Source of the DNA: an uncultured Nocardioidaceae bacterium
GTDB lineage: Bacteria; Actinomycetota; Actinomycetes; Propionibacteriales; Nocardioidaceae
Assembly: GCA_902805865.1 (NCBI GenBank)
Contig: CADCUK010000108.1
Location: forward strand, 43,719-92,027
DNA length: 48,309 bases
Direction: 5' to 3'
Numbering within the stretch: position 1 is the stretch's first letter; each line of letters begins with the position of its first letter. The notes under the pieces were generated by a model that saw only the letters and a list, made by a program, of their open reading frames with translations, was not told the origin of the DNA and ran no database searches. The translations under genes were made by a program, and so were the position numbers. Positions 14,208 through 18,375 of the stretch are shown here, one piece after another.

Positions 14208-15413
14208 GTGGACTTCGACCTCACCCCGCAGGCGCAGGAGACGTGCGACCGGATGTGGGACTTCATGCGAGAGCACGTGTTCCCCGCCGAGCCGGAGTGG
14301 GCGGCGTACCTGCGCGAGCACGGTGAGCACGAGCACCCGCCGGTGATGGAGGAGCTCAAGGCCGAGGCGCGCAGGCGCGGGCTGTGGAACCTCTTCCTGC
14401 CGCAGCACTCGGGGCTGTCCAACGTCGACTACGCCGCGGTCGCGGAGATCACCGGCTGGTCACCGGTCATCGCGCCGGAGGCGATCAACTGCCAGGCGCC
14501 GGACACCGGCAACATGGAGACGCTGCACCTCTTCGGCACCGACGAGCAGAAGAAGCGGTGGCTCGAGCCGCTGCTGGCCGGCGAGATCCGCTCCGCGTTC
14601 GCGATGACCGAGCCCGAGGTCGCGTCGTCGGACGCCACGAACATCCAGACGAGCATCACCCGCGACGGCGACGAGTACGTCGTCAACGGCCGCAAGTGGT
14701 GGATCACCGGCACCGCCGACGAGCGGTGCCAGGTCTTCATCGTGATGGGGAAGACCGACCCCGACGCCGAGACTTACCGCCAGCAGTCGATGATCCTCGT
14801 CCCGCGCGACACACCTGGTGTGCAGGTCGTGCGGCACCTGCCGATCTTCGGCTACCAGGACCAGCACGGCCACTCCGAGATCGTCTTCGACGACGTGCGC
14901 GTGCCGGCCGCGAACATGCTGGCCGGCGAGGGCGACGGCTTCATGATCGCTCAAGCCCGGCTCGGTCCCGGCCGGATCCACCACGCGATGCGCGCGATCG
15001 GGATGGCCGAGCGCGCGATGGCGCTGATGGTCGACCGCGCCCAGTCGCGGGTCGCGTTCGGCCGGCCGCTGGCCGACCAGGGGGTGGTGCGCGAGCTCAT
15101 CGCCCAGTCCCGCATCGAGATCGACCAGGCCAGGCTCTACGTCTACCGCACCGCCTGGCTCATCGACCGCCACGGCGCCAAGGGCGCTCGGACCGAGATC
15201 GCCGGCATCAAGGTCGCAGCGCCGGCGATGGCCGCCAAGGTCGTCGACCGGGCGATCGAGGTCTTCGGCGCGATGGGCGTCAGCGACGACACCCCGCTCG
15301 CCTACTTCTATGCCTGGGCCCGGATCCTGAGGATCGTCGACGGCCCGGACGCCGTGCACCGCAGGACGATCGCCCGCGAGGAGCTCAAGCGGGAGCGCCC
15401 GTACGTCGGTTGA
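14208..15413 (+). CDS. Acyl-CoA dehydrogenase (ACAD10/11-like)
   Basis: 401 residues. Three-domain FAD-dependent acyl-CoA dehydrogenase that would introduce a 2,3 double bond into an acyl-CoA. Motifs: FAMTEPEVASSDATNIQ and VNGRKWWITGTAD around the flavin, and the C-terminal helices RVAFGRPLADQGVVRELIAQSRIEID and AIEVFGAMGVSDDTPLAYFYAWARILRIVDGPDAVH. The ARILRIVDGP-VH ending is typical of the ACAD10/11-like group. Substrate unknown. The start is the GTG at 14208 (VDFDLTPQAQE). Ends with a 29-base overlap with the convergent sucrase/ferredoxin-like gene. Confidence 0.9.
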   Translation: MDFDLTPQAQETCDRMWDFMREHVFPAEPEWAAYLREHGEHEHPPVMEELKAEARRRGLWNLFLPQHSGLSNVDYAAVAEITGWSPVIAPEAINCQAPDTGNMETLHLFGTDEQKKRWLEPLLAGEIRSAFAMTEPEVASSDATNIQTSITRDGDEYVVNGRKWWITGTADERCQVFIVMGKTDPDAETYRQQSMILVPRDTPGVQVVRHLPIFGYQDQHGHSEIVFDDVRVPAANMLAGEGDGFMIAQARLGPGRIHHAMRAIGMAERAMALMVDRAQSRVAFGRPLADQGVVRELIAQSRIEIDQARLYVYRTAWLIDRHGAKGARTEIAGIKVAAPAMAAKVVDRAIEVFGAMGVSDDTPLAYFYAWARILRIVDGPDAVHRRTIAREELKRERPYVG

Positions 15414-16311
15414 GCTGGTCGATCCCGAGCAGCGTGTGCACCGGCGCCGGGGACGGGGTCGCCGCCCTGCAGGTCAGCCTGGCCGGCTCGCCCCGCTCGG
15501 TGCGCAGCTGCACCCGCCACTGCTCGCCGGCGACCTCGAACACCACGGTGGTGGCCGCGCCCTCGCGGCTGCGCGAGACCAGTCGCGGGGCGTCGACCGC
15601 GTCGAGGTCCAGCCGGCGCCGGAGGTGGATCTCGGCGGCCTGCACGGGGAACGCGAACGACGACCGGCCGCGCAGGTGCTCGAGATCGAGCCGGCGCTCC
15701 CGGTGGGTGCGCACGAACTCCTCCGCCTCCGCCGGCAGGAGGCGGCCGTAGTAGAGGCCGTGAGGGAGCACCACGACGTTGGGGGAGAACCGGTCGCCGC
15801 CGACGTGCGAGACCTCCCAGCTCTCCTCGGGGGCGACTGCCGCCAGCGCCGCGGCCAGGGGACGGCCGAGCTCGGCGCAGCACGCGTCGTGGCGTCCGTG
15901 GGTGCAGGTGAGGAACAGCGGCTCGAGGTGCGGCTCGAGCCCGATGGCACCGCCGTCCGTGAGGGGCGTCAGGTCGAGGTCGAGCAGCTCACGCGCGTCG
16001 GCGAGCACGGCCCGCTCCAGCCGAGCGCTCGGCACGTGCGCGGTGAACAGCGACACCTCGCCCGGTCGCGACCGGCGGCCCGGACGGCGGATCAGCAGCG
16101 GCCGGACGCCACGGCCCTCGAGCTCGACGAGGCGGGCGGCGACCTCGGGGTCGAGCCGCCCCTCGCGCAGGGCGTGGACGCCCCACGGTCCCTGGCTCTC
16201 GAGCAGCAGGAACGTGCGCACGGTGGAGGCCGTCCCCTCCAACGGCTCGGTGGCCGCGAGGCTGGCCACCGAGCACCGGAAGTCTGGTGCGGCCTTGTCC
16301 GTAGCCGTCAC
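15385..16311 (-). CDS. Sucrase/ferredoxin-like (Suc_Fer) protein
   Basis: 308 residues of the Suc_Fer/Apd1 family, thioredoxin-fold ferredoxins proposed to bind a [2Fe-2S] cluster. Conserved elements: Cys13, the cluster region TCTHGRHDACCAELG (C136, H138, H141, C144, C145) and SHVGGDRFSPNVVVLPHGLYYG (H169). In yeast Apd1 the second ligand pair is, as I recall, a His-x3-His; here the second position is Asp173, so the cluster may be bound differently. The ATG overlaps the JmjC stop (ATGA), so the two are translationally coupled and probably act together, perhaps as electron carrier and oxygenase. Confidence 0.85.
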   Translation of the reverse strand: MTATDKAAPDFRCSVASLAATEPLEGTASTVRTFLLLESQGPWGVHALREGRLDPEVAARLVELEGRGVRPLLIRRPGRRSRPGEVSLFTAHVPSARLERAVLADARELLDLDLTPLTDGGAIGLEPHLEPLFLTCTHGRHDACCAELGRPLAAALAAVAPEESWEVSHVGGDRFSPNVVVLPHGLYYGRLLPAEAEEFVRTHRERRLDLEHLRGRSSFAFPVQAAEIHLRRRLDLDAVDAPRLVSRSREGAATTVVFEVAGEQWRVQLRTERGEPARLTCRAATPSPAPVHTLLGIDQLNRRTGAPA

Positions 16312-17447
16312 GGCACGATCCGCAGCAGTCCCTCGCGCACCAGGCGACGTGCCACCACGAGTCTGCTCTGCGGGTCCAGCCAGGGCTCCAGCTCTCCGAC
16401 GGTGAACGTGGCCCGGTCCCGGACGACCTCCATGACGCCGGTGAGCCGCAGCGGCACCTTCAGCTCGCGGTCACCGAGGAGCACCCGCAGCTTCTCCGGT
16501 CCGGGGTCGAGGACGCAGGCGGCGGTGGGCCGGCGCTCGAGCCGGCTGTCGTCGGTGAGGTGGTCGAGGCCGACCAGGTCGACGAGTCCACCGCGGAGGT
16601 AGGGGACGCGGTCGGTGAGGAACTCGTCCACGCGGGCCTTGGCCAGGGTCTCGGGGTCGGTGGCGGCCAGCGACTCCGCCAGCGCTGCGAGCTCGTCGGA
16701 GAGCCGCTCGGCGAGCCTGCTCGGGTCGTCGAGGTAGCCGGCCGGCAGCGCGACGTCGTACCGCTCGTCGGCGAGCGCCTGCTCCGTGGCCCGACTGAGG
16801 AGCTCGCGGGCGGTGACCTGGTTGATGCCGATCGTCACGTGCAGGGAGGTCTGCTCCTGGCTGCGAGCCGAGTGCAGGGTGCCGGTCGGCAGGTACATCG
16901 AGAGTCCCGGCTCCAGGAGCACCTCCCGCACCTGCGGGTCGTCCGGCCCTCCTTCGACGATCTCCCACAGCTTGTGGCCGTGCGTCTGGAAGACGAACAC
17001 GTCGTGGCTGTCGCTGTGCCGGGCGAACCCCTGGGAGCCGGGAGGGGTGAGGTAGGCGTTGGCCTGGCACGGGTGGCCGAGGGCCAGCTCGAGGTCTCGG
17101 ACCAGGTCGGTGAGCGGCTGCCAGTAGCGGTGCAGCCCCTGCAGCACGACGGTCGCGCCCGCGTCGAAGTGCGCGAGCACCTTGCGGGCGTCGACCAGGC
17201 CGCTGAGTGGTGCGCCGGCCAGCGAGGCGGACCGGGTGAAGTCCGCCGCCGCCAGGACGGTGCCGTCCTTGACGACACGGAGGGCCGGGGTGCGGAGTGC
17301 GGTCGAGGTCAGCAGGTGGTCGACGTCGTCCAGGGACAGCAGCGCGGTCAGCGCATCGGGGGCGGCGTGGTGCAGGTGCGTGCGGGACGCCCAGACCTTG
17401 TCGCAGAAGGTCTGGGCGTCGCCGCTCAGCAGGGTGAGTGCGTCCAA
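16308..17447 (-). CDS. JmjC/cupin-4-type 2-oxoglutarate Fe(II) oxygenase
   Basis: 379 residues. Resembles the ribosomal-oxygenase/RoxA (YcfD-like) JmjC family that hydroxylates protein side chains. Iron triad: His144 and Asp146 in FARHSDSHDVFVFQTHGHKLW, and a distal His192 in LPTGTLHSARS. A C-terminal winged-helix-like region (FTVGELEPWLDPQSRLVVARRLVREGLL) fits the same family. The start is taken as TTG 17447 because MDALTLLSGDAQTF matches the family N-terminus; an in-frame GTG at 17576 would add 43 Thr/Ala/Pro residues that are only the out-of-frame reading of the upstream peptide gene. It follows that gene by 7 bases. The peptide is a plausible substrate. Confidence 0.8.
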   Translation of the reverse strand: MDALTLLSGDAQTFCDKVWASRTHLHHAAPDALTALLSLDDVDHLLTSTALRTPALRVVKDGTVLAAADFTRSASLAGAPLSGLVDARKVLAHFDAGATVVLQGLHRYWQPLTDLVRDLELALGHPCQANAYLTPPGSQGFARHSDSHDVFVFQTHGHKLWEIVEGGPDDPQVREVLLEPGLSMYLPTGTLHSARSQEQTSLHVTIGINQVTARELLSRATEQALADERYDVALPAGYLDDPSRLAERLSDELAALAESLAATDPETLAKARVDEFLTDRVPYLRGGLVDLVGLDHLTDDSRLERRPTAACVLDPGPEKLRVLLGDRELKVPLRLTGVMEVVRDRATFTVGELEPWLDPQSRLVVARRLVREGLLRIVP

Positions 17448-17454
17448 GGACAGG

Positions 17455-17676
17455 TCAGGCGTCGGTGCCGTCGGCGTCGCCGCCGTCGCTGCTGTCGCCG
17501 TCCGAGGAGTCGGTCGAGTCCCCGTCCGAGGAGTCGCTGTCCGAGGAGTCGCTGTCGGCGCCGTCGGCGTCACCACCGTCGGTGCCGTCCGCGTCGGCGG
17601 GCCCGGGCTTGCTGGAGGCGGGGGTCACCGTCTCGATGTCGTCGTCGCCCACTGGTTCCTGCGGCGTGGTGGTCAT
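17455..17676 (-). CDS. Ser/Asp-rich 73-residue peptide, candidate RiPP-type precursor
   Basis: 73 residues. Residues 1-27 form a leader-like part (MTTTPQEPVGDDDIETVTPA), residues 28-73 are almost only Asp, Ser, Gly, Ala and Thr with repeats such as SDSSDSDSSDGDSTDSSDGD. Net charge is extremely negative; no signal peptide, Cys or aromatic residue. The ATG at 17676 is chosen because AGAGGAG lies 5 bases upstream; an in-frame GTG at 17724 is less likely. Located between a methyltransferase and a JmjC oxygenase on the same strand, with a 7-base gap to the latter. Side-chain hydroxylation of its Asp residues is an inference. It could instead be a metal-binding or disordered acidic protein. Confidence 0.6.
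   Translation of the reverse strand: MTTTPQEPVGDDDIETVTPASSKPGPADADGTDGGDADGADSDSSDSDSSDGDSTDSSDGDSSDGGDADGTDA
17501..17551. repeat. Three copies of a 12-base repeat inside the acidic peptide gene
   Basis: TCCGAGGAGTCG occurs at 17501-17512, 17525-17536 and 17540-17551. On the coding strand it reads CGACTCCTCGGA, giving Asp-Ser-Ser-Asp. The repeats suggest that the core region grew or shrinks by slippage. Confidence 0.8.
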
Positions 17677-17724
17677 GACGCTCCTCTCGCTGGCGGCGCG
17701 GGGTTGCGCCGGTTCCATGGGCAC

Positions 17725-18375
17725 CTACCCTGTCGCATCCTGGGTCAAGCGGGCCAGGTGCACGAGTGCGCCGTCCTCGTAGGACCGGCTCTCCACCACG
17801 CGCAGCCCGAGGTGCGGCCAGTCGGTGACGTAGCGAGCGACCGGCTCGGACTGCTCCGGACCGACCTGGAGCACGGCCGCCCCGGCAGGCGCGAGGTGCC
17901 GACCGATCACGTCGAGGCAGGACCGGACCAGGTCGAGGCCGTCGCGCCCGCCGTCGATGGCCGACAGCGGGTCGTCAGGGTGGTCGTCGGTCCGGGCGCT
18001 CACCACCCATGGTGGGTCGGCGATGACAAGCACGAACTTTTCGTCCGGCTCGATCGCCGCCTCGAGGTCGCCGTGACGGACCTCGACCGACCGGTTGCCC
18101 GCGCGTGCCGCGTTGATCTCTGCGAGCTCGCACTGTCGTGCGCCGGCGTCGACCTGCACCAGGTGCCGCGAGCTGCCCGAGACCGCGAGCAGCCCGATGT
18201 GGCCGACCCCGGCACACAGCTCCAGGACGTCACCCGCCGGCAGACCTCCGAGGAGGGCGGCGGCCCAGCGCGACTGGTGCTCGGTCCAGGGACGCGGCTC
18301 CAGCACGTCGTCGTCGTACTCGATCTCGAGGTGGCCGAAAACCGTGCGTCGGCTCTGCGTCCTCTTCTCGGTCAC
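17725..18375 (-). CDS. Class I SAM-dependent methyltransferase (HemK/PrmA-like motif)
   Basis: 216 residues. Rossmann methyltransferase with the SAM loop VLELCAGVGHIGLLA (about residues 47-61), acidic residue VQVDAGARQCELAEIN and the active-site DPPW in LVIADPPWVV, the NPPY-type motif used by enzymes that methylate glutamine, adenine or similar nitrogens. The substrate is not clear. The GTG at 18375 is chosen because a TAGGTT box lies 7 bases upstream; extending further would read through the divergent gene. It ends 48 bases before the acidic peptide gene on the same strand, so cotranscription and action on that peptide are possible but unproven. Confidence 0.8.
   Translation of the reverse strand: MTEKRTQSRRTVFGHLEIEYDDDVLEPRPWTEHQSRWAAALLGGLPAGDVLELCAGVGHIGLLAVSGSSRHLVQVDAGARQCELAEINAARAGNRSVEVRHGDLEAAIEPDEKFVLVIADPPWVVSARTDDHPDDPLSAIDGGRDGLDLVRSCLDVIGRHLAPAGAAVLQVGPEQSEPVARYVTDWPHLGLRVVESRSYEDGALVHLARLTQDATG

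Follow-up and report, generated by a model that had tools for sequence, protein, structure and literature searches.

A two-gene unit of an Asp-repeat, precursor-like peptide and a JmjC oxygenase in actinobacteria

Gene organization of the locus

In a 48,309-nucleotide stretch of DNA from an uncultured Nocardioidaceae bacterium (contig CADCUK010000108.1, positions 43,719 to 92,027; hereafter the window, meaning this whole stretch), a small gene for a precursor-like peptide was found directly upstream of a JmjC oxygenase gene, followed by a gene for a Suc_Fer-like protein. Peptide and JmjC form a two-gene unit, usually accompanied by Suc_Fer, in which the peptide shows the leader/core division of ribosomally synthesized and post-translationally modified peptides (RiPPs). 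The features of the locus are as follows.

17455-17676, minus strand: precursor peptide gene, 73 amino acids (aa), ATG start, from the list of open reading frames (ORFs) and like the peptide upstream of JmjC in relatives; the peptide begins MTTTPQEPVGDDDIETV..., continues as an Asp-repeat core and ends in ...GGDADGTDA
17596-17676, minus strand: leader part of the precursor, containing V-G-D-D-D-I-E-T; the leader/core border is our choice
17458-17595, minus strand: core of the precursor, with Asp mostly every 2 or 3 residues in DxDxx and Dxx units (x = A/G/S/T)
17681-17685, minus strand: AGGAG resembling a ribosome-binding site, four bases 5' of the peptide ATG, read from the sequence
16308-17447, minus strand: JmjC (PF08007) 2-oxoglutarate (2OG)/Fe(II) oxygenase, 379 aa, TTG start
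15385-16311, minus strand: Suc_Fer-like protein, 308 aa, GTG start, a putative thioredoxin-like [2Fe-2S] protein
17725-18375, minus strand: HemK/PrmC-like methyltransferase, with family scores below cut-offs; a neighbour only, outside the cassette

The genes thus run on the minus strand in the order methyltransferase, peptide, JmjC and Suc_Fer; the JmjC TTG start comes 7 bases after the peptide stop, and the Suc_Fer gene overlaps the JmjC stop by 4 bases. ORFs, strand and family matches confirm the set of peptide, JmjC and Suc_Fer genes as it was read in the initial annotation. The assembly of the source genome is incomplete, comprising 3.09 Mb in 215 contigs with 82% completeness; one place in it matched the JmjC query and one the peptide query.

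The peptide gene accompanies the JmjC gene across genomes

The JmjC protein was searched in 149 genomes of the family, 196 of the order and 396 of the phylum (overlapping samples), and matches were obtained in 79, 94 and 56 genomes at E limits of 1e-10, 1e-10 and 1e-20, respectively. A search of a contig collection gave 39 JmjC loci, and regions were fetched around further matches. Removal of near copies (97% identity over at least 150 aa) reduced 185 loci to 151, and five with unreadable upstream DNA (L008, L067, L143, L145 and L165) were dropped, leaving 146 non-redundant loci. Upstream peptides were called with a class-blind rule comprising a start codon, an acidic motif within 4-30 residues, and then a tail rich in D/G/A/S/T with few basic residues.

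A repeat peptide lies directly upstream of JmjC in 135 of the 146 loci, 120 of them found by the class-blind rule (109 by a stricter one) and 15 by eye. The by-eye peptides comprise 13 in loci with Suc_Fer (L148, L174, L179, L181, L182, L166, L177, L168, L103, L114, L104, L106 and L108) and two in loci where it was undetected (L118 and L178); that of L148 was read in its shorter copy L121, and those of L114 and L178 are the weakest. In controls, scored by the class-blind rule alone and never by eye, none of 146 opposite-strand places gave a peptide, and one did among 2723 windows taken from other parts of these loci. The initial annotation had set conservation of the acidic small ORF beside the oxygenase as its test in advance, and these counts bear it out. 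The search it proposed, for JmjC and Suc_Fer neighbours in actinobacterial genomes, had the same outcome: the peptide is present in all 129 loci with a detected Suc_Fer, while among the 17 others it was found in six and none was counted in 11.

A peptide profile, A3, built from 23 peptides of JmjC loci, was run over the same 149 family genomes. It gave 52 matches in 51 genomes, every one directly upstream of JmjC on the same strand. A window-type JmjC, defined as a match of at least 172 bits, occurs patchily, in 57 of the 149 genomes; no profile match was found in the other 92, in 22 of which JmjC matched more weakly or in part and in 70 not at all. The genomes thus divide into 51 with both, six with a window-type JmjC only, none with a profile match only and 92 with neither. 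In four of the six (G028, G074, G086 and G091), a divergent peptide is visible by direct reading (L080, L020, L026 and L028); in G100 just the end of the peptide is left at a contig edge (L008), and the JmjC match of G039 likewise lies at a contig edge. A genetically encoded precursor therefore adjoins a candidate modifying enzyme. The part of the earlier claim that made the peptide the partner of JmjC stands on the 135 loci and the lack of orphan profile matches, and its role as the substrate is probable.

A conserved leader and a variable Asp-repeat core

The leaders share the consensus L-x-[DE]-[DE]-[DE]-[IM]-x-T. Anchored on the acidic motif, the 109 D-rich peptides have L/V at position -2 in 97%, D/E at 0, +1 and +2 in 100%, 90% and 98%, I/M at +3 in 92% and T at +5 in 91%. 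A second, GPADGG type (11 rule-found peptides), with core repeats such as EGPADGG...HDGGADG, has D at 0 in 10 of 11, M/I at +3 in 10 of 11 and T at +5 in 8 of 11. A few of the 120 rule-found peptides have a mis-set motif and were kept in these column statistics and in the spacing statistics below. The same leader motif hence precedes both core types, and a conserved leader with a variable core is the arrangement of a RiPP precursor. Leader codon positions have entropies of 0.81, 0.71 and 1.18 (84 peptides), the third being the most variable, and core serines are encoded by TCN as well as AGC codons, the pattern expected if selection acts on the peptide.

In the D-rich cores (n = 108), which are 28-111 aa long with varied filling, Asp makes up 37.9% of residues. 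Steps of 2 or 3 residues account for 95.7% of 2129 Asp-Asp steps, against 38.8% after shuffling, and adjacent Asp for 1.3% against 38.2%. The 2-or-3 spacing holds separately in near relatives (96.8%, 81 cores) and distant ones (92.7%, 27 cores), in which DxDxx is filled in 36 and 55 different ways, respectively, indicating that the Asp spacing is not one copied repeat. Furthermore, peptide type follows the JmjC tree with 9 changes against a shuffled mean of 35.3, on a quick tree (LG+G4, SH-aLRT support only) with several long branches. Neither Pfam, NCBIfam nor PHROG matched the precursor at the limits used, with a few representative peptides searched. An intermediate core type was seen in L147 (G557), where the family leader is followed by ADGTDQGV..GGTYGPRDA repeats and no Suc_Fer was detected.

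Which core residue would be modified was considered by comparing residue sets over 118 cores with borders of our choosing, namely 115 rule-found cores (5 of the 120 left out) and three beside Streptomyces clavuligerus-type JmjC. The latter precursors carry ...IADNDPSDPPIAIADPDPFDPVI or ...ISDNDPSDPVVVISDNDPSDPVI, with DxDxxD twice and other fillings. D and G are common to the 115 cores, and D alone remains when the three are added, so that elimination favours Asp as the modified residue. JmjC could instead act on Ser, Thr or Gly, or perform another oxidation such as desaturation, backbone oxidation or cross-linking, Asp being kept for recognition or for metal binding by the product. The chemistry of JmjC and related 2OG enzymes is varied, 775 of about 2100 core Asp follow a Thr, and Suc_Fer could signal an extra redox step; however, the core of L101 repeats only A, D and G and has no Thr, and the S. 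clavuligerus-type cores have no Gly. We consider this alternative unlikely.

The JmjC oxygenase

The window JmjC carries a PF08007 (JmjC_2) domain with the HxD...H triad H144/D146/H203, which is intact as first reported, and its predicted fold is shared with the ribosomal oxygenase family, whose NO66/MINA-like members are the best structural matches of the model. The predicted C-terminal part (about 302-379) has strands at 302-305, 312-315, 319-323 and 328-332 and helices at 333-344, 350-353 and 359-371; in the model, this strands-then-helices order resembles that used to define RiPP recognition elements (RREs; beta-beta-beta then alpha-alpha-alpha). No RRE family was among the Pfam or NCBIfam matches.

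These structural matches would also fit an enzyme that, like NO66 and MINA, oxygenates a ribosomal protein, the acidic peptide serving as a regulator, decoy or inhibitor that mimics a partner; basic ribosomal proteins could conceivably have acidic decoys. Yet a conserved ribosomal target misfits an enzyme whose window-type form is encoded by 57 of the 149 family genomes. The cores change greatly in sequence and in number of repeats while the leader stays, as expected for a RiPP precursor, and LanM or YcaO/TfuA genes are found near remote homologues. We therefore regard a ribosomal target as improbable.

Those remote homologues place the wider enzyme family in other RiPP-like clusters as well. 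On a Pseudanabaena galeata plasmid (L187, NZ_CP112877.1), a JmjC/cupin gene lies near a class II lanthipeptide synthetase (LanM) gene, and on the Streptomyces vietnamensis plasmid pSVL1 (L188) one lies beside YcaO, TfuA, methyltransferase and carbamoyltransferase genes, probably another RiPP cluster. The S. clavuligerus-type JmjC is 34% identical to the window enzyme. Its locus on plasmid NZ_CP065235.1 (L186:3769-5164) comprises a JmjC ('cupin') gene and an upstream 48-aa ORF with two DxDxxD units; JmjC is followed by genes for an S9 peptidase, on the opposite strand, and for an ABC transporter. This locus would be a good cultured test system. In L192, L196, L198 and L199, whose JmjC proteins are 43-48% identical to that of S. 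clavuligerus, small upstream ORFs have cores with many Asp and Asn and, often, Trp residues, a further precursor type. About 3 kb into L116, the short ORF MVEENQILDDDFKIEIEDVREPDSYAAEVLIIHLY, possibly an unrelated precursor, lies upstream of a 30%-identical JmjC.

The Suc_Fer protein is a frequent but not obligatory partner

The Suc_Fer protein scores 67.9 bits against PF06999 (curated cut-off 34.9). Residues C136, C145, H169 and D173, among others, are invariant in 38 sequences, and these four are the putative cluster ligands. Its structure model (pLDDT, the predicted local distance difference test, 92.7) has a weak match to the thioredoxin-like [2Fe-2S] ferredoxin 1m2d (E 0.023). With Apd1/Aim32 it shares the sucrase/ferredoxin-like domain and the CX8C spacing (here C136 and C145), and it differs in having HX3D (H169, D173) where these have HX3H, according to the part of the Apd1/Aim32 report available (PMC8482512). 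PF06999 was found in 33 of 149 phylum genomes at 39 places, 20 of them beside a JmjC match by coordinate comparison. The initial annotation had counted Suc_Fer as a member of the set. Its detection in 129 of the 146 JmjC loci upholds it as a frequent partner; an obligatory one is ruled out by six loci in which peptide and JmjC are kept and Suc_Fer went undetected.

The methyltransferase and the wider neighbourhood

The methyltransferase, also included at first, does not belong to the cassette. By tblastn (E <= 1e-8), 4 of 70 loci were found to have a homologue, namely the window's own locus twice (L001 and L070) and that of one congener twice (L004 and L031). Flanks in this count were about 1.5 kb for most genome-search loci and up to 6 kb for the 39 contig-collection loci, of which one (L031) has the homologue.

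Among ORFs of at least 100 aa in 71 long loci, the only same-strand genes that recur widely are JmjC (71) and Suc_Fer (63); other recurring clusters are mostly opposite-strand ORFs overlapping JmjC, Suc_Fer or neighbouring genes. An ORF resembling a LuxR-type ATPase regulator, identified by reading the sequence and not by family search, lies upstream in 13 of the 71 (e.g. L044, from 3.3 kb upstream of JmjC), with 12 of the 13 ORFs on the JmjC strand. An ABC-type ATPase was seen in 10 loci, at varying positions and in either orientation. Neither a protease nor an exporter is widely recurrent in these flanks. For a phage origin, no match was found in 50,697 phage records.

A DxDxxD spacing that resembles the spacing of metal ligands, and flanks in which proteases and exporters do not recur widely, could fit an unmodified acidic buffer for calcium or iron that is merely co-transcribed with JmjC and Suc_Fer. 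Such a peptide, however, would need no conserved leader, peptide type follows the enzyme tree, and the 52 profile matches are all beside the oxygenase gene, with none elsewhere in the 149 genomes; we consider an unmodified buffer highly improbable.

Relation to known systems

NO66, MINA53 and YcfD (PF08007) have the JmjC_2 domain, the triad and the fold in common with the window enzyme, but here the gene is paired with a small Asp-repeat peptide and usually with Suc_Fer. In the available part of the biphenomycin report, BipG is a JmjC ornithine hydroxylase that acts on a ribosomal precursor (PMC12707348). The likeness lies in a JmjC protein beside such a precursor, with residue hydroxylation presumed in our case; in contrast, the bip clusters, as that part describes them, add a multinuclear non-haem iron-dependent oxidative enzyme (MNIO), an arginase and a B12 radical S-adenosylmethionine enzyme on a Phe/Arg core, where the cassette has Suc_Fer only and an Asp-repeat core (PMC12707348). 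No biphenomycin-type FRF motif was found in our cores; of 115 cores, one contains Phe. Fusions of JmjC (PF08007) proteins to RRE-like domains have been described, with closest bacterial homologues about 30% identical and in RiPP-like contexts; the accessible portion of that paper, which concerns the same Pfam family, names no precursors and mentions neither an Asp-repeat family nor Suc_Fer (PMC12710340).

Hydroxylation of Asp itself has precedents. The nitrilobacillin MNIO PesHI is described, in the accessible text, as hydroxylating Asp of a RiPP precursor stereoselectively at the beta position, but it belongs to an unrelated enzyme class and acts on one Asp (Asp21), with nitrile formation following (PMC13060819). 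FIH acts on ankyrin repeats, Asp being among its hydroxylated targets; unlike the cassette enzyme, it is an animal regulator without a dedicated precursor or leader, as far as the available part of the source goes (PMC4543633).

Since JmjC enzymes in RiPP pathways are already known, the kind of system is known. Among the matches listed in a literature search, with subscription papers mostly outside its scope, no Asp-repeat JmjC/Suc_Fer family is described. Judged by these matches and by family libraries searched with a few representative peptides, an Asp-repeat precursor family with its own JmjC and Suc_Fer appears to be new. Macrocyclization in RiPPs by an alpha-ketoglutarate dioxygenase, reportedly the subject of Xia et al. 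in 2025, is possibly relevant, going by the title alone.

Proposed function and significance

Together, these data describe what is probably a widespread actinobacterial family of modified ribosomal peptides, in which JmjC modifies the peptide. For the reaction, we favour, with moderate confidence, a RiPP-like cassette in which JmjC hydroxylates the repeated core Asp and Suc_Fer acts as a redox helper; the proposal of Asp hydroxylation draws on the elimination argument, the regular Asp spacing, the hydroxylation of Asp by FIH and that of ornithine in a RiPP by BipG. The precursor would be recognised by JmjC, probably via its C-terminal part, winged-helix-like in the model, which may bind the leader. 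JmjC would then hydroxylate many core Asp, most likely at C-beta, while Suc_Fer, as a thioredoxin-like [2Fe-2S] protein, would most likely keep the JmjC iron reduced or feed it electrons. The result would be a polyanionic peptide rich in (hydroxy)aspartate, for which metal binding seems the likeliest use.

Several observations weigh against this proposal. The 11 loci without a counted peptide have enzymes 27-40% identical to the window's and no detected Suc_Fer. On the tree, eight stand as outliers or resemble paralogues; L099 and L176, whose acidic upstream ORFs were left uncounted, fall among GPADGG-type loci and L164 among D-rich loci, so the peptide-JmjC pairing has exceptions. Since profile A3 was built from JmjC-locus peptides, the absence of orphans holds for peptides of the same kind only. 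By tblastn and motif scan, Suc_Fer went undetected in six peptide-bearing loci (L118, L119, L147, L169, L171 and L178; the scan covered 1500 bases downstream in L118 and L119). In GPADGG-type cores, Asp is much sparser and differently spaced, and the elimination argument depends on our core borders and on every subfamily sharing a single chemistry. Remote JmjC homologues in other RiPP settings may differ in specificity. The main gap is that no protease or exporter recurs, and no third same-strand gene in more than 13 of the 71 long loci, to account for removal of the leader and release of the product; the leader protease could be a remotely encoded enzyme.

Hydroxyaspartate is a siderophore ligand. 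A bolder extension, which we put forward tentatively and hold to be doubtful, is a phylum-wide RiPP class in which a JmjC resembling ribosomal oxygenases works along an Asp repeat with spacing of 2-3 residues to yield poly-(beta-hydroxy)aspartyl peptides. These would be tunable iron- or calcium-binding polymers, with capacity set by repeat number, and would be the gene-encoded equivalent of the hydroxyaspartate ligands that siderophores use.

If JmjC does modify the peptide, the ribosomal-oxygenase branch of JmjC would be linked to a large family of repeat precursors, and a simple two-gene system would be at hand for a JmjC enzyme acting repeatedly along one chain. A logic of chemistry by repeat number would be added to ribosomal natural products, and the cassette would hint at a common root for the peptide- and ribosome-modifying members of JmjC_2.

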